64,000 nt of DNA from Methylobacillus gramineus. Its GTDB lineage: Bacteria; Pseudomonadota; Gammaproteobacteria; Burkholderiales; Methylophilaceae. Of the stretch, positions 32,950 through 44,194 are shown piece by piece. Where the stretch lies: the NCBI RefSeq assembly GCF_020532675.1, contig NZ_JAJAVE010000001.1, forward strand, positions 1,612,001 through 1,676,000, in the 5' to 3' direction. The translations under genes and the position numbers were made by a program. A model generated the notes under the pieces. It did not search any database. It had not been told where the DNA came from and saw only the letters and a list, made by a program, of their open reading frames with translations. Position 1 is the first letter of the stretch; every line of letters begins with the position of its first letter.

Positions 32950-33288
32950 ATGAGTACTGCATTAATTGTAGGTGGCGACCAGATTGACGGCATCAAACAG
33001 GAGCTGTCCAATTTCGGTATTACGCATATCAATCACTGGTCTGGCCGCAAGGTGGGCGATGGCAAGAAAATCATCCCTCAAGATACCGATCTGATCATAT
33101 TGATCACAGACTGGATCAGCCATACGTTTACTCACAAGATCAAGCAGAATGCGGCCAAACGGGGCGTCAAAATTGTTTACACCCCCAATGGCCCGGCAGC
33201 ATTGCGTACCAGGCTCAAAAGACTGGATCCGGATTACGTTGTGGAGGCCGAATGTAGAGAAGATCAATCTGGATTTTCACTACATTAA
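32950..33288 (+). CDS. DUF2325 family protein
   Basis: 112 residues. The N-terminus STALIVGGDQIDGIKQEL resembles a dinucleotide-binding loop, and the block DTDLIILITDWISHTFTHKIKQNA plus KRGVKIVYTPNGP is characteristic of DUF2325. The function is unknown. It has a strong ribosome binding site (AAAGGAG) and lies 74 bp after the sulfate-binding protein and 75 bp before the Mop gene, all on one strand. Confidence 0.85.
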   Translation: MSTALIVGGDQIDGIKQELSNFGITHINHWSGRKVGDGKKIIPQDTDLIILITDWISHTFTHKIKQNAAKRGVKIVYTPNGPAALRTRLKRLDPDYVVEAECREDQSGFSLH

Positions 33289-33363
33289 GAACACTCAAAA
33301 GCCTCACATGCCGAACTGAAGTAAGCATCCGGCATATTGATCGTACGCAAAAGGAGATTCACC

Positions 33364-33579
33364 ATGGCAATACACGCAATTAACGTCCGTAACCAATTCC
33401 GCGGCAGAATCAAGGAAATAGTCGTTGGCCCGGTCGTATCAGAGGTTGATGTTGAAACGCCTGTGGGTATTGTCACCTCTGTGATTACCACACGTTCCAT
33501 CACAGAGCTCAACCTGCAAGTTGGTACGGAAGTGCTGGCCCTGATTAAGGCAACAGAGGTATCCCTCGCCAAAGTCTAG
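33364..33579 (+). CDS. Mop/TOBE-domain molybdenum-pterin-binding protein
   Basis: 71 residues from the ATG at 33364, preceded by AAAGGAGA; the upstream in-frame ATG lacks a site. A single Mop domain is visible (INVRNQFRGRIKEIVVGP ... SEVDVETPVGIVTSVITT RSITEL), ending in LIKATEVSLAKV. Mop proteins (molbindins) bind molybdate or related oxyanions in the cytosol. Beside sulfate uptake genes it could buffer molybdate, which competes for the sulfate transporter, or sense oxyanions; this is inference. Confidence 0.9.
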   Translation: MAIHAINVRNQFRGRIKEIVVGPVVSEVDVETPVGIVTSVITTRSITELNLQVGTEVLALIKATEVSLAKV

Positions 33580-33669: not shown

Positions 33670-35574
33670 CTACAAACCATTTACACCTTTAGCAGACGCC
33701 AGCTTGAACAAGGCATTCTGCAACACATCAATTTCTGCATACGTGTTATAGAACGCCAGTGATGGCCGGACTGTAGTTTCCACACCGAAGCGGCGCAGGA
33801 TAGGCTGTGCGCAATGATGACCAGAACGTACGGCGATGCCTTCCTGATTCAGGGCAGCACCCACTTCTTCGCTCTTGTAACCATGCAGGTTAAACGACAA
33901 TACGCTGGCCTTTTCCTTCGCTGTGCCAATCAAACGCAACCCGGGCACCTTGTTCAGCGCGGCTGTTGCATAGACCAGGAGCTCATGCTCGTAACGGGCA
34001 ATATTGTCTATACCCAAGCGCTCAACATACTCCAGCGCAGCACCCATGCCCACGGCATCGGCAATATTGCCGGTACCGGCTTCAAACTTGGCTGGCGCTC
34101 CATGGTAGACCGTCTTTTCAAACGTCACGTCCTGGATCATATTGCCGCCACCTTGCCATGCAGGCATATCATTCAGCACTTCCGGCTTGCCATACAACGC
34201 GCCTATACCGGTTGGGCCAAACACCTTGTGACCAGAAAACACAAAGAAGTCACAATCCAGCGCTTGAACATCCGTACGCATATGTGACACAGACTGCGCA
34301 CCATCCAACAATACCTTGGCACCGACACTATGGGCCATCTGTATCATCTGCTGCGCAGGCGTTACTGTGCCCAGAGCATTGGATACCTGAGTGAAGGAGA
34401 CCAGCTTGGTACGCGATGTCAACAGCTTCTGATATTCATCCAGCAATACCTGTCCGCTGTCATCTACCGGCACCACCTTGAGCTTGGCACCGGTTTCCTG
34501 GCATAACTGCTGCCAGGGCACAATATTGGCGTGATGCTCAAGATTGGTCACAATAACTTCGTCGCCCTCACCCAAATGCTTCTTGCCCCAGGTTTTGGCA
34601 ACCAGGTTGATCGCTTCCGTGGTACCACGCACAAACACGATGTTATCTACCGAAGGCGCATTGATGAAACGACGAACAGTTTCACGAGCCCCTTCATAAG
34701 CATCAGTCGCGCGTGCTGCCAGCTCATGCGCAGCACGATGGATATTGGAGTTTTCGTGCTGATAGAAATAGGACAGACGGTCTATCACCACCTGCGGCTT
34801 TTGCGTAGTGGCCGCATTGTCCAGCCAGATCAGTGGCCTGCCATTGACCAACTCACGCAGAATAGGAAAATCCTTGCGCACCAGATTGGCGTCAAACGGC
34901 GGATGCGCTGAACTGGATACTTGTGGCACCCCAGAACGATCACCCAGGAAGTAATAAGGTGTCGCCTTGTTTTCAGGCGCTGACTTACCCGCACCACTAG
35001 CAGAACTATTCACTGGCGAGACCAAAAGGCTTTGCAAGTCCAACTGGTAAGGAATATCAATCCCCCCCAGCAAGCTGCTAATATCCAGTGCGCCCAGTAT
35101 GCTGCCATCTAGCGGCAACGAGGATGCCCCAGGAGTCGGCCCTACTGCATCTAAGCGCTCCTGGGTGAATTCAGGTGGCAGATGGGATGGCGACACGCCA
35201 AAACTAGGCGCACTAACGGGTATCGTTTCCGCACCGGGCACGATGTTAGTCACTGCAGGCAAGCCCGCAGGAACAGCCGATACGGCGGATGGAGCGGCTG
35301 GCACCGGCGCACCTATGGTCGGGCTTCCAGCCGCATACGGCGCGGCTGAGTCGGTCAATGAAGCAGTCGATGGAATGCCCTGTGCTTGTGGGAAGCCTTC
35401 AGAGTAAATCTCGTTGGCAATGCGGGTCAGTTCATCGATATCCAGATGTCCGCCTGCCTGAGCCTCTCGCCCCACAGCCAGAGCTGCCCCCATACGGGGA
35501 TGCTCACCCGGCACTGATGCCAGTATGGCCTCGGGCTCGAACGAAGACAAATCGTTGAAGTTACTTGTAGTCAT
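33670..35574 (-). CDS. Family 2A encapsulin cargo: cysteine desulfurase (SufS-like) with targeting extension
   Basis: 634 residues, about 225 longer than an ordinary SufS. Residues ~225-634 are a group II cysteine desulfurase: FPILRELVNGRPLIWLDNAATT, PLP lysine K450 (FSGHKVFGPTG) and catalytic cysteine C588 (RSGHHCAQPIL). It takes sulfur from cysteine as persulfide and releases alanine. Residues 1-225 are rich in A, P, S and G and look disordered. They contain short conserved-looking islands (DELTRIANEIYSEGFP, HLPPEFTQERLDAVG, ALDISSLLGG, ATPYYFLGDRSG), as in encapsulin cargo proteins, where this tail binds the shell interior. The start overlaps the shell gene by 14 bp. Confidence 0.94.
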   Translation of the reverse strand: MTTSNFNDLSSFEPEAILASVPGEHPRMGAALAVGREAQAGGHLDIDELTRIANEIYSEGFPQAQGIPSTASLTDSAAPYAAGSPTIGAPVPAAPSAVSAVPAGLPAVTNIVPGAETIPVSAPSFGVSPSHLPPEFTQERLDAVGPTPGASSLPLDGSILGALDISSLLGGIDIPYQLDLQSLLVSPVNSSASGAGKSAPENKATPYYFLGDRSGVPQVSSSAHPPFDANLVRKDFPILRELVNGRPLIWLDNAATTQKPQVVIDRLSYFYQHENSNIHRAAHELAARATDAYEGARETVRRFINAPSVDNIVFVRGTTEAINLVAKTWGKKHLGEGDEVIVTNLEHHANIVPWQQLCQETGAKLKVVPVDDSGQVLLDEYQKLLTSRTKLVSFTQVSNALGTVTPAQQMIQMAHSVGAKVLLDGAQSVSHMRTDVQALDCDFFVFSGHKVFGPTGIGALYGKPEVLNDMPAWQGGGNMIQDVTFEKTVYHGAPAKFEAGTGNIADAVGMGAALEYVERLGIDNIARYEHELLVYATAALNKVPGLRLIGTAKEKASVLSFNLHGYKSEEVGAALNQEGIAVRSGHHCAQPILRRFGVETTVRPSLAFYNTYAEIDVLQNALFKLASAKGVNGL

Positions 35575-36478
35575 AGTAGTTGCCTACGTCTACATTCTCC
35601 AGCACGGCAATCGCATCTTCGGTCAATACCGCCAGCGAGCAATAAAGTGAAACCAGATAGGAAGCAATCGCTTTGTGATTGATACCCATGAAGCGTACAG
35701 ACAGGCCCATGGTTTGCTGGCCTGGCAAGTTAGGTTGATACAGACCGACCACGCCCTGACGGCTCTCACCAGTACGTAGCAAGATGATGTTGGTCTTGCC
35801 TTTAGTCACACGCAGCTTGTCGCATGGAATCAGAGGGATACCGCGCCAGGTAATGAATTGTGAGCCGAACAGGCTCACAGTTGGTGGTGGTACGCCGCGA
35901 CGTGTGCACTCACGGCCAAATGCCGCAATCGCCTGTGGGTGGGCCAGGAAGAAAGCTGGCTCTTTCCACACACGTGAAATCAGTTCATCAAAATCATCTG
36001 GTGTTGGTGAGCCGGTACGTGACTTGACCTTTTGACCATCAGCCACATTGTGCAACAGGCCGTATTCCTTGTTATTGATCAGTTCGCTTTCTTGGCGCTC
36101 TTTCACTGTTTCAATAGTCAGGCGCAGTTGCTCACGAATCTGGTTATGCGGGCTGCTATACAGGTCAGAAATACGCGTATGTACATCCACCACAGTGTTC
36201 ACGGCATTGAGCACATACTCACGGCCCCACTCTTCGTAATCCACGAACGTGGCTGGCAACTCGCGTTCATCCTTATTGGAACAATCCACCTGCACATTGT
36301 GGTTGTCTTTCACCTTGTTAACACGGTAAATACCTGCTTCTACCGGCACCCACTGTAGCAGGTGTACCAACCAACGCGGGGTGATAGCACCCAGCATTGG
36401 CACCGTTTTGGTCGCATTGGCTAACGTACGGGCTGCAACATCACCCAATGCGGTATGGCCCTGATGAATATCTGACAT
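35561..36478 (-). CDS. Family 2A encapsulin shell protein
   Basis: 305 residues, the size of SrpI-type family 2A encapsulins. Recognisable blocks are ALGDVAARTLANATKTVPML, TPRWLVHLLQWVPVEAGIYR, TRISDLYSSPHNQIREQLRL, SRVWKEPAFFLAHPQAIAAF and the C-terminal VSLYCSLAVLTEDAIAVLEN. The fold is that of the HK97 phage capsid protein, self-assembling into a closed icosahedral shell. With a cysteine desulfurase cargo, family 2A shells are known to accumulate elemental sulfur. AAAGGAGAG lies just before the ATG, and the cargo gene is translationally coupled downstream. Confidence 0.95.
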   Translation of the reverse strand: MSDIHQGHTALGDVAARTLANATKTVPMLGAITPRWLVHLLQWVPVEAGIYRVNKVKDNHNVQVDCSNKDERELPATFVDYEEWGREYVLNAVNTVVDVHTRISDLYSSPHNQIREQLRLTIETVKERQESELINNKEYGLLHNVADGQKVKSRTGSPTPDDFDELISRVWKEPAFFLAHPQAIAAFGRECTRRGVPPPTVSLFGSQFITWRGIPLIPCDKLRVTKGKTNIILLRTGESRQGVVGLYQPNLPGQQTMGLSVRFMGINHKAIASYLVSLYCSLAVLTEDAIAVLENVDVGNYYDYK

Positions 36479-36552: not shown

Positions 36553-37509
36553 TTAAGTTGAAGCATCGGATTGACGGCTTGATGACACCGCATCCTTCAT
36601 CTGTGCCTGAGTAATATTGCTATTAGGGGGCACGCTGTAAGTCAGCCAGACATTACCGCCAATGACCGAACCACGACCAATCGTGATACGTCCCAGAATA
36701 GTCGCTCCTGCATAGATCACCACATCATCCTCAACAATGGGATGACGCTCATTCCCCTTGACCAGAGCACCATCCGCATCCACCGGAAAACGCTTGGCGC
36801 CTAACGTTACTGCCTGGTAGAGACGCACATGGCGCCCAATAATGCTGGTTTCTCCGATCACCACACCCGTCCCATGATCAATAAAGAAACCTTCGCTAAT
36901 TTGTGCCCCAGGGTGTATATCAATCCCAGTGGCTGAGTGAGCAATCTCAGTAATCATACGGGCAATCAATGGCACGCCCAGCTGGTGCAACACATGAGCA
37001 ATGCGGTAATGAATAATGGCATTAATCCCGGGATAGCACACCAGCACCTCATCCACACTTCTGGCAGCAGGATCACCCTCATAGGCGGCCCGTATATCAC
37101 TATCCAGCAACACGCGAACTGCTGGCAGGCGACTGGCAAAATCACGTACCAATACAATTGCTCGCTCACGTGATACTTCTGGAGTCGCTGCTACTTCTGC
37201 CACAAAGTTGAGTTCCAACCTCACCTGCGCCACTAGCTCACGCAGCGCCACATCCAGGGTATGTCCAACAAAATAATCCAAGCCTTCTTCACGTAAATCC
37301 GGCAGCCCCAAACGATTGGGAAACAAGGCTGCACCCAAGCCATCAACCACGCTAGCGAGCACTTTTCGTGCAGGCAGCTTGGGAGGACGATTCAGGCGAT
37401 TCCTATGCTCCAGGGAAGCCTGCCGTACTTCACGTAAGTCACTCACTATCTGACTAATCCCTAAATCATCAGGAAATAAGGATTCATCATTATTCACATC
37501 TCGACTCAT
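36553..37509 (-). CDS. epsC: Serine O-acetyltransferase, EpsC/SrpH type
   Basis: 318 residues. The N-terminal helical region (ISQIVSDLREVRQASLEHRN) is the EpsC type, longer than plain CysE. The C-terminal left-handed beta-helix contains the active-site region DIHPGAQISEGFFIDHGTGV and hexapeptide turns (VVIYAGATILGRITIGRGSVIGGNVWL). It makes O-acetylserine from serine and acetyl-CoA, the carbon acceptor for sulfide in cysteine synthesis. It is the first gene of the encapsulin operon, matching srpH beside srpI in cyanobacteria, and would raise cysteine supply for the encapsulated desulfurase. Confidence 0.93.
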   Translation of the reverse strand: MSRDVNNDESLFPDDLGISQIVSDLREVRQASLEHRNRLNRPPKLPARKVLASVVDGLGAALFPNRLGLPDLREEGLDYFVGHTLDVALRELVAQVRLELNFVAEVAATPEVSRERAIVLVRDFASRLPAVRVLLDSDIRAAYEGDPAARSVDEVLVCYPGINAIIHYRIAHVLHQLGVPLIARMITEIAHSATGIDIHPGAQISEGFFIDHGTGVVIGETSIIGRHVRLYQAVTLGAKRFPVDADGALVKGNERHPIVEDDVVIYAGATILGRITIGRGSVIGGNVWLTYSVPPNSNITQAQMKDAVSSSRQSDAST

Positions 37510-37540
37510 ATACCTGCATCCAAAATTGAGACCTACAAAC

Positions 37541-37575
37541 GAAAAAAGCCAGTAGCCTGGTTGGCATACTGGCTT
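37541..37575 (-). terminator. Intrinsic-terminator hairpin in the leader of the epsC-encapsulin operon
   Basis: Read on the minus strand, AAGCCAGTA (37575 down to 37567) pairs perfectly with TACTGGCTT (37554 down to 37546) around a 12-base loop and is followed by a T-run ending at 37542. It stands only 32-66 bp before the epsC start codon, in the same direction. No other gene on this strand needs it, so it most likely acts as a transcription attenuator in the operon leader. Confidence 0.7.
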
Positions 37576-37587
37576 CCGGTGTTCCGG

Positions 37588-37626
37588 TCAGCTAAACACT
37601 AATAATAAACAATTAGTAATTATCAT
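37588..37626 (-). other. Possible 12-codon leader peptide before the attenuator
   Basis: On the minus strand ATG at 37626 opens MIITNCLLLVFS, with stop TGA at 37590-37588, 12 bp before the terminator stem. It contains one cysteine codon followed by three successive TTA leucine codons. The ribosome binding site is poor. The geometry resembles leader-peptide attenuation, but such a short frame can occur by chance. Confidence 0.2.
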
Positions 37627-37902
37627 GCAGACACTTGCTCTTTTTGTGGAAGTTACAAGACCGCTTAACTACTTATGCTAATAGCATCGCTACGTTCTAT
37701 GAATGGTGCAGCAAACTCATCAATAATGGAAGACTATCATATATTCACATTAATTATATACATATAAGTTAAAAATATATAAGAGATTTATTTACAAATA
37801 ACAAAAACAGCCATACATATTCAACTATATTCTTTTACATTATTTTTTAGATTGCATATAGTGCGCACATGCTCCGTTCCATCCATCATTATTGAGGCCT
37901 AC
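37627..37902. other. Divergent promoter region between epsC and second sbp
   Basis: About 275 bases, strongly AT-rich near 37735-37860. It must hold promoters for both the encapsulin operon (minus) and the sulfate-transport operon (plus). I see no ORF and no recognisable operator; CysB sites are too degenerate to call by eye. Confidence 0.45.
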
Positions 37903-38906: not shown

Positions 38907-39821
38907 ATGTCGAAAACACATGAAAACCAAAGCACGCCAGCACAGGCAACCAAAATATCCTCGGCCCATATAGAGCAGTTGAAGATTCAGTTAAGGGAAT
39001 CGCTCTATCTGGATCTTGATGAATACGGCCTGGAAGAGCAGCAATCCGGCGAGTTTAATAGCACCTTTCTCGGCATACAGCTAAATAGCGCCTTCCAGCC
39101 TATTTATGATAGCGAAGCAGGTGATTTGCATGGGCACGAAGCTTTTTTACGCCCATCTCTTGGCGGCTTACAAGCGATCAGCCCTGAGTTTGCATTCAGC
39201 TTTGCCGAACAAGGTGGCAAGCTGGTGAAGTTTGACCGTGTTGCGCGTACTCTACATGTGCTCAACTTCCGCCAGATCTATGCGGAAAATGGCCTGCTGT
39301 TCCTCAATGTGCACCCTAACCTGCTGATTAGCGTCAATGCGCACGGCAAAGTGTTTGAGCGCATATTGCATTCAAACTCTGTGCCGACAGACAGAGTGGT
39401 GATTGAGATTCAGGAAAGCGTTCTGGAGCATGAAAATCAGTTGGCTGAAGCCATAGAGAATTATCGTGAGCGTGGTTACGGGATCGCAATCGACAACTTT
39501 GGCAATAAGCACTCCCATCTGGAACGCTTGTGGAAGCTGTCACCCGAGTTCGTCAAATTCGACACCAGCCTGATCAAGGAAGCAGAACGCAACCCTCGTT
39601 TGCGCAAGATATTGCCGGGCCTGATTCAATTGGCACGAGACATTGGCGCGCAGCCAGTCATTACCGGCATAGAATCCCAAACCGGTCTGGAAATTGCCAT
39701 CGAGTCTGGTAGTACCTTGTTGCAAGGCTATTTCCTGGGGAAACCCGTCACCGCACGCGAATTGCAGCCTACCGATGCCATCAAGCCCGCACTGCACCTG
39801 AAAAAACGTGCAGCGGCTTAA
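38907..39821 (+). CDS. EAL-domain protein, partly degenerate, within the sulfate-transport cluster
   Basis: 304 residues, one EAL domain (about 55-290) after a ~50-residue N-terminus without a known domain. Expected metal and catalytic residues that remain are E78 (reads EAF, not EAL), N134 (LFLNVHP), E167 (IEIQES), D196, K218, E256 and Q273. The second aspartate of the DDFG motif is asparagine (IDNFG, N197). Activity against c-di-GMP may therefore be weak or lost, leaving a binding or protein-interaction role. It has no membrane segment. The position 14 bp after sbp and before cysT is unusual for a c-di-GMP protein. Confidence 0.85.
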   Translation: MSKTHENQSTPAQATKISSAHIEQLKIQLRESLYLDLDEYGLEEQQSGEFNSTFLGIQLNSAFQPIYDSEAGDLHGHEAFLRPSLGGLQAISPEFAFSFAEQGGKLVKFDRVARTLHVLNFRQIYAENGLLFLNVHPNLLISVNAHGKVFERILHSNSVPTDRVVIEIQESVLEHENQLAEAIENYRERGYGIAIDNFGNKHSHLERLWKLSPEFVKFDTSLIKEAERNPRLRKILPGLIQLARDIGAQPVITGIESQTGLEIAIESGSTLLQGYFLGKPVTARELQPTDAIKPALHLKKRAAA

Positions 39822-41752: not shown

Positions 41753-42829
41753 ATGAGTATCGAGATCCGCAATATCAAGAAAGAATTCGGCAGTTTCACC
41801 GCCCTGAACAATGTCAATCTGGACGTACCGAGTGGCGAACTGGTCGCCCTACTTGGACCCTCAGGATGCGGCAAGACTACCCTGTTACGTATCATCGCCG
41901 GTCTTGAATCACCAGACACTGGCAGCATTCACTTTCATGGGCAGGAAGCCACAGACCGCGATGTACGCGAACGCCAGGTAGGTTTTGTATTCCAGCATTA
42001 CGCGCTGTTCCGCCATATGACGGTATTTGAAAATGTAGCCTTCGGCCTGCGCGTTCGCCCAAAGAAAACGCGCCCGACAGAAGCGGAAATACACAGACGC
42101 GTGCACCAGTTGCTGGAGCTGGTTCAGCTAGACTGGTTGGCAGACCGTTACCCACCACAACTCTCAGGCGGCCAACGTCAGCGTATTGCGCTAGCTCGCG
42201 CATTGGCTGTAGAACCCAAGGTATTGCTGCTGGATGAGCCGTTTGGCGCACTTGATGCCAAGGTACGCAAGGATTTACGCCGCTGGCTGCGCCGCCTGCA
42301 TGATGAGTTGCACATTACCAGCGTCTTTGTGACACATGACCAGGAAGAAGCGTTGGAAGTAGCTGATCGTATCGTGGTCATGAACCAGGGCAAGATTGAG
42401 CAGATAGGCACACCACAAGATGTTTACGATAATCCAGCCTCACCGTTTGTCTACAAATTCCTCGGCAACGTTAACCAATTTCATAGCCGCGTCAATGAAG
42501 GCCAGGCGCATATTGGCGACATTTCATTGACCCTAAATGCGCATCACTCGACGCAAAATAGCAATGCGCTGGCCTATGTCAGACCGCACGACATTGATGT
42601 CTATACAGAGCAAAACGGCCAACCTGCATTACAAGCGATTGTCAGCTATATCCATGCCGCTGGTCCGCTGGTCAGGCTGGAGCTGCAGCCGATCAATGAA
42701 ACCGACACGATAGAAGCGGAAATCACCCGTGAACGCTTTCGCGAACTTGCCCTCAATCAGGGCTCGCACGTGTACCTGAAGCCACGCAACGTACAAGTTT
42801 TTCTGGAATCTGCAATTACACAAAGCTAA
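41753..42829 (+). CDS. cysA: Sulfate ABC transporter ATP-binding protein CysA
   Basis: 358 residues. Walker A (GPSGCGKTT), the signature LSGGQRQR, Walker B with D-loop ([12 protein letters not shown]) and the switch histidine (VTHDQEE) are intact. The C-terminal regulatory TOBE-like domain contains YVRPHDIDV. It powers import of sulfate bound by Sbp. AAGGA precedes the ATG. A very strong terminator follows, closing the operon. Confidence 0.96.
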
Positions 42830-42862
42830 CTACACTGTTCGCCCAGCCGACCTGACAACAGG

Positions 42863-42902
42863 AGGCCGTTACATGAGATTAATCATGTAACGGCCTTTTT
42901 TA
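42863..42902 (+). terminator. Strong intrinsic terminator after cysA
   Basis: A perfect 14-bp stem (42863-42876 with 42883-42896, beginning AGGCCGTTACATGA) with a 6-base loop is followed by six T's, 34 bp after the cysA stop. Confidence 0.95.
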
Positions 42903-42931: not shown

Positions 42932-44194
42932 ATGACGGGATTAAGAACTAGCACACTTTCTACACTGGCTTTGTCGGTCATCAGTATCGGCATCGCGAGC
43001 ATTGCATCCGCGACAGACGGCTACTTTGCCCACGGTTATGGGGTGAAGTCTCAAGGTGTGGGGGGCGTAGGGATTGCCTTGCCACAGGATGCACTGGTCT
43101 CTGCCAGCAACCCGGCTGGATTGGCCTGGGTAGGCGATCGCCTTGATATTGGGGCCACCTGGTTTCGTCCCCAACGGGAAGCTGAAATTGAAAACAACGC
43201 AGGGCCTATCAATGGCAAATACGATGCCAATGACAAAGAAAACTTCATCATCCCGGAAATAGGCTACAACAAGCAGGTCAGCGAAACACTGAACGCGGGG
43301 GTCGCTGTATACGGCAATGGCGGCATGAATACTGATTACAAAACTGCGGTTCCATTATTGGGCAACAGGCGCGCGGGCATCGATCTAATCCAGGTATTTA
43401 TCAAACCTGCGCTGGCATGGAAACTCTCACCGACCCAGTCTATAGGTGTGGGGCTTAACCTTGCCTATCAACGGTTTGAGGCCAAAGGCCTGCAGAACTT
43501 CGATAATAACTTTTCCGAAGCACCTGGGCATGTGACGAATAAAGGCCATGATTCCTCTTATGGTATCGGCGCACATATCGGCTGGCTTGGCCAGTTTGGT
43601 GATCACGTGACATTGGGCGCCAGTTATCAAACAAAAACCTCCATGAGCAAGTTCGACAAATATCGCGGCCTGTTTGCTGAACAGGGAGACTTCGACATTC
43701 CCGCCAGCTATGGCCTGGGCATCGCCATCAAGCTGACCCCAAACTGGACGGTAGCTGGGGATGTGCAGCGCATTCGCTATAGCGATGTCGACTCTGTAGG
43801 CAACTCGATTGCCAACTTCTTCGCACAACAGCAACTTGGCTCAGACCGCGGAGCCGGCTTTGGTTGGCGCGATGTCACCGCATATAAAATTGGCACGCTA
43901 TACCAAGTGAATGACCAACTCACATTACGTGCTGGCTACAACCATGCAACACAGCCTATTGCGCGCGGCGAAACGCTGTTCAATATCCTGGCACCAGCTG
44001 TTGTTCAAGATCACGTCACCCTGGGGGCAACCTGGAAATTCGAGAACAAGAGCGAACTGTCACTGAGTTATGTGCATGCGTTTGAAAACAAGGTAAACGG
44101 GAATAACTCCATCAACCCTGCATTTGGTGGTGGCGATGTTAACCTCAAGATGTATCAAGATTCACTAGGCATTGCTTACGCCTGGGCGCTATAA
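42932..44194 (+). CDS. FadL/OmpP1/TodX-family outer membrane channel
   Basis: 420 residues with a signal peptide (ending IASIASA) and the family N-terminus TDGYFAHGYGVKSQGVGGVGIALPQDALVSASNPAGL. It has a 14-stranded barrel, ending YQDSLGIAYAWAL. FadL-type proteins move hydrophobic compounds (fatty acids, aromatics, hydrocarbons) across the outer membrane by lateral diffusion. AAGGA precedes the ATG. It is a separate unit between the cysA terminator and the YeeE pair, so a link to sulfur is only positional. Confidence 0.92.
   Translation: MTGLRTSTLSTLALSVISIGIASIASATDGYFAHGYGVKSQGVGGVGIALPQDALVSASNPAGLAWVGDRLDIGATWFRPQREAEIENNAGPINGKYDANDKENFIIPEIGYNKQVSETLNAGVAVYGNGGMNTDYKTAVPLLGNRRAGIDLIQVFIKPALAWKLSPTQSIGVGLNLAYQRFEAKGLQNFDNNFSEAPGHVTNKGHDSSYGIGAHIGWLGQFGDHVTLGASYQTKTSMSKFDKYRGLFAEQGDFDIPASYGLGIAIKLTPNWTVAGDVQRIRYSDVDSVGNSIANFFAQQQLGSDRGAGFGWRDVTAYKIGTLYQVNDQLTLRAGYNHATQPIARGETLFNILAPAVVQDHVTLGATWKFENKSELSLSYVHAFENKVNGNNSINPAFGGGDVNLKMYQDSLGIAYAWAL

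Follow-up and report, generated by a model that had tools for sequence, protein, structure and literature searches.

The window, that is, the whole 64,000-nucleotide stretch of DNA that was analysed, contains on its minus strand an operon encoding a serine O-acetyltransferase (epsC), a family 2A encapsulin shell protein and the cargo cysteine desulfurase of the encapsulin (Table 1). On the other side of the epsC leader, a divergent gene encodes a sulfate-binding protein. Further along, on the plus strand, cysA precedes a gene for a FadL-type outer membrane protein. Two copies of a conserved RNA element were identified, one ahead of epsC and one between cysA and the FadL-type gene. The sulfate-binding protein gene and cysT are separated by an EAL-domain gene of the c-di-GMP phosphodiesterase type; comparable EAL genes occur close to encapsulin in other loci of the Methylophilaceae, and Nitrosomonas loci have more distant ones, with matches in 28 of the 80 loci. 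The encapsulin operon also adjoins DUF2325 and TOBE-domain genes, which have matches in 17 and 6 of the 80 loci, respectively; the methanotroph loci examined showed no DUF2325.

Table 1 Genes and RNA features of the window
Feature	Position	Strand	Family match or composition
Encapsulin cargo cysteine desulfurase	33670..35574	(-)	NF041166
Family 2A encapsulin shell protein (SrpI-like)	35561..36478	(-)	NF041162, PF19307
epsC, serine O-acetyltransferase	36553..37509	(-)	NF041874, above cut-off
Conserved RNA element, copy 1	37540..37592	(-)	GCUGA + CCGG hairpin + A + terminator + T-run
Intrinsic terminator of copy 1	37542..37575	(-)	9-bp stem, bulged T, 3 inner pairs, T-run
Candidate 5' recognition hairpin	37576..37587	(-)	CCGG-AACA-CCGG
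Conserved 5' flank	37588..37592	(-)	GCTGA; mostly GCYNA across copies
12-codon ORF	37588..37626	(-)	TGA stop within the conserved GCTGA
Hairpin upstream of copy 1	37598..37617		ACTAAT/ATTAGT
cysA, sulfate ABC transporter ATPase	41753..42829	(+)	PF00005, PF17850 CysA_C_terminal
Conserved RNA element, copy 2	42846..42902	(+)	GCC GA CCTG ACAA CAGG A GGCC + terminator
FadL/OmpP1/TodX-type outer membrane protein	42932..44194	(+)	PF03349
DUF2325 and TOBE-domain genes	32950..33579	(+)
EAL-domain gene	38907..39821	(+)

Copy 1 forms the leader of the epsC-encapsulin-cysteine desulfurase operon. A GC-rich stem followed by a T-run lies on the sense strand ahead of the first gene: the perfect 9-bp stem (AAGCCAGTA/TACTGGCTT, 37575-37546), prolonged by three more inner pairs beyond a bulged T, is followed by a T-run at 37547-37542, 32 nt before the epsC ATG. 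For the 66-nt stretch the folding energy is -24 kcal/mol (z = -2.9), a value equalled by none of 200 shuffles. Coordinates and folding thus bear out the hairpin and T-run that had been described here from the letters alone, and the CCGG hairpin placed upstream of them by the same sequence-only reading is also present and is kept in relatives. A simple terminator scan of the window did not list this terminator, probably because its loop limit was 8. The GCY of the 5' flank is able to pair with RGC (37574-37572) at the base of the terminator stem. Scanning of 37510-37900 revealed no minus-strand promoter-like site, either before or after the hairpin.

The CCGG hairpin and the terminator precede epsC in all six Methylobacillus genomes and also in Methylovorus sp. 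MM2. The core GCTGA-CCGG-NNNN-CCGG-A-AGCCAG...CTGGCT-T-run is kept in all seven with small changes, including compensatory ones within the kept architecture among the six Methylobacillus genomes, while the rest of the leader varies. The conservation in relatives on which the attenuator proposal had been made to depend is therefore found. In one locus (L008), the upstream DNA is unrelated, as judged by eye, and the element is retained. Two further features of the sequence-only reading, the ACTAAT/ATTAGT hairpin and the 12-codon ORF with one Cys codon, are indeed present in the window; however, inspection by eye showed that neither is kept across the same seven genomes, and the hairpin is no part of the element. 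The ORF is in register only in the nearest relative (L007/L029, M. caricis), where it lacks the Cys codon.

An alignment of 55 non-identical copies (53 distinct), among them copies from gammaproteobacterial methanotrophs, supports two helices, with 96.1% of cells paired. Two-sided changes occur in 10 of the 15 base pairs, and none of 500 shuffles reached the observed values, so that the covariance analysis of the leader suggested by the sequence-only reading comes out in favour of a conserved structure. In the first hairpin no pair is ever lost, the stem being CCGG/CCGG, CCAG/CTGG or CTGG/CCAG. Within the terminator, the base AGCCAG hardly changes, and the inner part is freely variable, mostly with compensation. 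Positions A5, A18 (unpaired), C2, C6, G9, C14, G17 and G20 are invariant.

A larger set of 124 copies was obtained from 126 module rows after removal of two judged to be chance (L107, L136); the weak matches L259_3041 and L268 were likewise judged chance. For one copy table, the duplicates L215, L231, L233 and L266 were left out and eight other rows added. The invariant positions remain nearly so in the 124 copies, with single exceptions at C2 (L241) and at G9/C14 (one copy). The module usually reads GCYNA-CYNG-ANNN-CNRG-A-RGCC. Its flank is GCYNA in all copies save one GTTGA, its stem mostly CYNG/CNRG with rare mismatches, and its loop mostly ANNN, 19 loop types being present in the 126 rows (two of these in the rows dropped as chance). 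Compensatory variants of the 5' hairpin include CCAG/CTGG, CCTG/CAGG, CTAG/CTAG, CTGG/CCAG and CCGT/ACGG, and a few copies carry one mismatch.

With a relaxed 5' pattern, 128 distinct modules were found in 1.58 Mb of loci plus the window. A terminator is joined to 127 of them (123 by script, four with a slightly different tail by eye), although modules without a terminator are under-sampled here because many loci were selected by a model that includes it. The single degraded module of the 128 is in L267. Natural variants with degraded terminators were observed before cysK at L267:7905-7953 (minus strand) and at L053:1880-1960, the latter outside the relaxed pattern.

Copy 2 consists of GCCGACCTGACAACAGGAGGCC and a terminator wholly unlike that of copy 1, and is thus a divergent copy. 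A gap of 16 nt separates it from cysA upstream and one of 29 nt from the FadL-type gene downstream, and it has no clear promoter of its own. The sequence-only reading of the epsC leader had not mentioned this copy. Although outside the training set of the covariance model, it scores 40.2 bits (E 2.6e-8 in the window); the 65.7 bits of copy 1 are not independent because copy 1 is row 1 of the alignment from which the model was built. A copy occupies the equivalent place in six other Methylophilaceae (G001, G006, G021, G029, G440, G447). The stretch searched in G005 gave no copy 2 match and no FadL hit, and that in G003 no FadL hit and only a 20.8-bit match after cysA. In G196 and G601, the element also precedes a FadL-type gene, just 30% identical. 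Copy 2 suggests that the FadL-type porin beside cysA belongs to sulfur uptake. The idea that the element is simply the general terminator type of the genome was discarded, as just two matches at E 0.01 or better are found genome-wide. A looser pattern search of the genome returned the epsC copy and one poor match with two mismatches.

We used the covariance model built from the 55 copies to survey other genomes, a strong match being one of 40 bits or more. Strong matches were found in 51 of 150 Methylophilaceae genomes and in 55 of 151 methanotroph genomes of the order of G196, which we take to be the Methylococcales because matches in its member G670 share their coordinates with those in Methylobacter tundripaludum SV96 (G544/L072); some of these genomes supplied training copies. 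In a class-wide sample of 369 genomes, only G196 and the genome of the window reached 40 bits or more, and in a phylum-wide sample of 398 genomes, only the latter and G001. These two samples therefore gave no such match outside the two groups, under stricter filters that lose weak matches. Weak hits outside the two groups (about 25-38 bits) were rejected after inspection of seven of their alignments (L113, L114, L301-L305): five have no 5' hairpin, and in the two closest, L303 (G900) and L113 (G231), this hairpin is altered.

Within the Methylophilaceae, the element largely co-occurs with encapsulin: among 37 genomes, a strong copy is present in 19 of 22 with encapsulin versus 1 of 15 without. 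The lone encapsulin-free exception, G023, keeps only epsC and encapsulin stubs behind the element. There (L276:996-1400), the epsC-encapsulin operon has been deleted to these stubs and the promoter and the RNA element persist; this locus is a relic. Encapsulin operons without the element also exist, in three Methylophilaceae, and 6 of the 18 encapsulin genomes of another set, including Nitrosomonas, gave no match.

The genes behind the element form a restricted group. Among 115 distinct copies (loci L111-L299), 112 precede one of seven kinds of gene: epsC (50), cysK (34), FadL-type (9), encapsulin (8), sfnR-like (7), cysJ (2) or OsmC-like (2). The other three comprise two with none of these genes and one at the edge of its locus. 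Of the 124 copies in the overlapping set, 119 stand before listed genes, one matches the cargo gene only and four match none. Downstream genes were classified by similarity to reference proteins, from a list drawn up after seeing which genes follow, and the loci are chosen stretches around strong matches, not every strong match. Furthermore, epsC and encapsulin are over-represented because the genomes of one set (18 searched) were chosen for holding encapsulin. The copies before sfnR-like, cysJ, OsmC-like and FadL genes came from model searches.

CysK and CysJ score above NCBIfam cut-offs. The 358-residue sigma54 regulator falls short of the cut-off in all 25 families listed, and is called SfnR-like by neighbourhood, since its homologues (53-59% identity) stand beside sfnG, msuE or ssuD in all three regions examined; these were picked from 12 listed rows, one of them on account of a sulfonate transporter in its annotation. 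The OsmC-like gene does not reach its family cut-off, and both FadL and OsmC count as sulfur genes by context only. No gene was assigned after the element in L251. At L241:965-1095 (G597), two tandem copies stand before a gene for an exported protein with no visible sulfur link.

The pairing of the GCY flank with RGC would extend the first hairpin into the base of the terminator. In the 55-copy alignment, this extended hairpin, inner stem included, has 99.5% of cells paired. At positions 3 and 19, where the two structures would compete, the 124 copies have UA (104), CG (8), UG (5) or C.A (7). The association between these positions is strong (Fisher's test, p 6e-6, ignoring relatedness), but only about three independent double changes were counted by eye, with no tree. 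The C.A combination indicates that the competing pair is not strictly kept, and the pairing of position 19 with position 65 in all 124 copies follows from the selection rule. The existence of an alternative, antiterminator hairpin is thus plausible from the alignments rather than proved. Its median energy is about -8 kcal/mol versus about -19 kcal/mol for the terminator; being far weaker, it must be assumed to have a stabilising binding factor.

When the 70 nt preceding the element were scored, 57 of the 124 copies (46%) had a sigma70-like site with 8 or more of 12 matches whose downstream end is 8-20 nt from GCYNA, versus 9.5% in simple shuffles. Among the methanotroph cysK copies, an exact TTGACA is the usual -35 box. 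None of the copies before FadL or sfnR-like genes has a 9-of-12 promoter, and in the window no clear site was found in this 70-nt stretch. In Methylophilaceae epsC leaders, the dyad GTTAGC-N4-GCTGAC is observed just 5' of the element (for example in L010, L041 and L162). Dyads of this type pair at 5 or more of 6 positions in 12 of the 124 copies, versus 1-7 at other gaps; one of the 12, in L019, has other letters. The dyad is a candidate for either an additional RNA hairpin or a DNA site of the LysR type.

We consider it likely that the element is a cis-acting, promoter-proximal transcription attenuator of a sulfur-acquisition regulon, gated by a protein or a ligand. RNA polymerase would start a few nucleotides upstream or, for copy 2, arrive from cysA, and the short 5' hairpin would form first. 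By default, the overlapping terminator would then form and transcription would stop ahead of the gene. Under sulfur shortage, this hairpin at the 5' side may be stabilised, most likely by an RNA-binding protein and possibly by a small ligand. The last terminator pairs beside the T-run would then be blocked, because GCY can pair with RGC, and polymerase would read through into epsC-encapsulin-cysteine desulfurase, cysK, cysJ, the sfnR-like gene or fadL. The small size of the sensor and its variable loop favour a protein over direct ligand binding. Sulfur limitation is proposed as the inducing state on the basis of the gene set and of Synechococcus, where, as reported in PMC8049743, the family 2A encapsulin and cysteine desulfurase genes are raised on sulfate starvation. 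The tight coupling of hairpin and terminator and the promoter-like sites shortly upstream in many relatives also speak for this reading. Speaking against it are the weakness of the extended hairpin, the C.A combination at positions 3 and 19, the lack of a promoter-like site near the element in the window, the lack of 9-of-12 promoters at FadL and sfnR-like copies, the encapsulin genomes with no match, and the loci L241 and L251. Conservation, covariation and recurrence before several kinds of sulfur gene give strong comparative support to the earlier proposal of an attenuator with a sulfur link, maybe a new RNA element; the regulated read-through that it called for we still infer, together with sulfur status as the signal, the direction and the factor.

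Several other explanations were weighed. The hairpin of 21 nt, with its GA/A internal loop, could be a true riboswitch, sensing a sulfur metabolite directly (O-acetylserine, cysteine or a sulfide-derived compound, for instance) and opening or closing the terminator. The downstream genes are nearly all sulfur genes and the invariant A5, A18, C2, C6, G9, C14, G17 and G20 exceed what pairing needs, but the hairpin is very small for an aptamer, its loop is poorly conserved, and neither a pseudoknot or junction nor an Rfam match was seen; we regard a riboswitch as unlikely. A constitutive, unregulated leaky terminator that just reduces expression (or, in the case of copy 2, terminates the cysA message), with the hairpin aiding folding, would account for a terminator that is nearly always there and for the tolerance of degraded ones (L267, L053). 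It would not need a GCYNA flank and a 5' hairpin kept across two distant groups and seven kinds of gene, and appears rather doubtful. Alternatively, a promoter-like site and a strong terminator spaced by roughly 60-70 nt in many copies could delimit a short trans-acting small RNA, the downstream genes being reached by leaky read-through only. Against this, the unpaired loops vary freely while conservation lies in the stems and the flank, copies stand before several genes of one pathway, and copy 2 directly follows cysA with no clear promoter. Such a small RNA thus seems improbable.

A DNA operator was also considered, in which the CCGG dyad (in Methylophilaceae also the GTTAGC-N4-GCTGAC dyad) would bind a CysB-like protein. 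The dyad shape and the excess of the GTTAGC-N4-GCTGAC type at one gap (12 of 124) are in its favour. However, the dyad abuts the terminator in 127 of the 128 modules (with the under-sampling of terminator-free modules noted above) and the predicted -10 box is upstream of it; in addition, compensatory pair changes or even mismatches occur at its middle positions, making an operator quite improbable. Least probable of these readings is attenuation through a leader peptide, which the sequence-only reading had offered as one route of control. The 12-codon ORF, with its Cys and TTA codons, is found in the window and, minus the Cys codon, in the nearest relative, but not in other Methylobacillus species. 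In many relatives, only a few nucleotides separate the predicted start from GCYGA, so that a leader peptide would not fit between start and element, as in the methanotroph cysK copies and in Methylophilus.

The attenuator gated by a protein or ligand therefore remains our preferred reading, and the element probably acts as an on/off gate for sulfur genes in two methane- or methanol-eating groups. With a little less confidence, we see in it a regulon-wide RNA switch responding to sulfur status in methylotrophic proteobacteria, read by an RNA-binding antiterminator or a metabolite. If so, encapsulated cysteine desulfurase and sulfur scavenging would share one RNA signal. A module with such a clear gene set makes the question of regulation directly testable, and in methanotrophs and methylotrophs the element could flag sulfur genes, the FadL-type porin next to cysA being one example. 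For family 2A encapsulin operons in these bacteria we are aware of no described mode of control, and in proteobacteria few cases of RNA-level regulation of sulfur assimilation are known beyond methionine and SAM.

Protein-dependent antitermination leaders include those of the BglG/SacY RAT, ANTAR/NasR-EutV, PyrR and GlpP systems. Like these, the element has a short hairpin that overlaps the terminator base, is promoter-proximal and is reused across the operons of a regulon; unlike RAT or ANTAR leaders, it shows no resemblance to their known sequence rules. Searches for ANTAR and CAT_RBD candidates yielded no binding factor. CAT_RBD proteins were detected in none of 10 element-bearing genomes, and the same search finds them in 4 of 14 control genomes; a BglG-family RAT leader was rejected on this ground. 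ANTAR genes occur in 10 of 10 element-bearing genomes versus 0 of 14 controls, which comprise no element-free relatives. In three of the four neighbourhoods examined by eye, their neighbours are genes for nitrate transport or nitrite reductase; an ANTAR protein was therefore set aside but stays a candidate factor. ANTAR leaders consist of two hairpins with six-base loops, with A at loop position 1 and G at position 4. In contrast, the first hairpin of the element has a four-base loop and the second is a terminator with a variable loop. The DUF2325 and EAL neighbours were also rejected as regulators, since both stand beside encapsulin in element-free Nitrosomonas loci as well.

With SAM/S-box riboswitches and T-boxes, the element would share RNA leader control of sulfur or cysteine genes via transcription termination. 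Unlike them, its sensor part spans about 21 nt, and no Rfam family, whether riboswitch, leader or T-box, overlaps the element in the window stretch and the seven loci compared. The SfnR/CysB sulfonate and sulfone regulon is controlled by DNA-binding proteins. The likeness here is a homologous regulator (53-59% identity), and the difference is that the sfnR-like gene itself bears the RNA element. The Synechococcus encapsulin work (PMC8049743) concerns the same kind of genes, and the word terminator occurs 0 times in its main text. No description of the element was found among the matches listed in open-access full texts, including passages of PMC8049743 and PMC2965389, a body of text with most subscription papers and all preprints outside it. 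Overall, by comparison with known systems, the element is probably an attenuator of a known general kind, with a recognition module that is undescribed in the literature searched and a gene set centred on sulfur.
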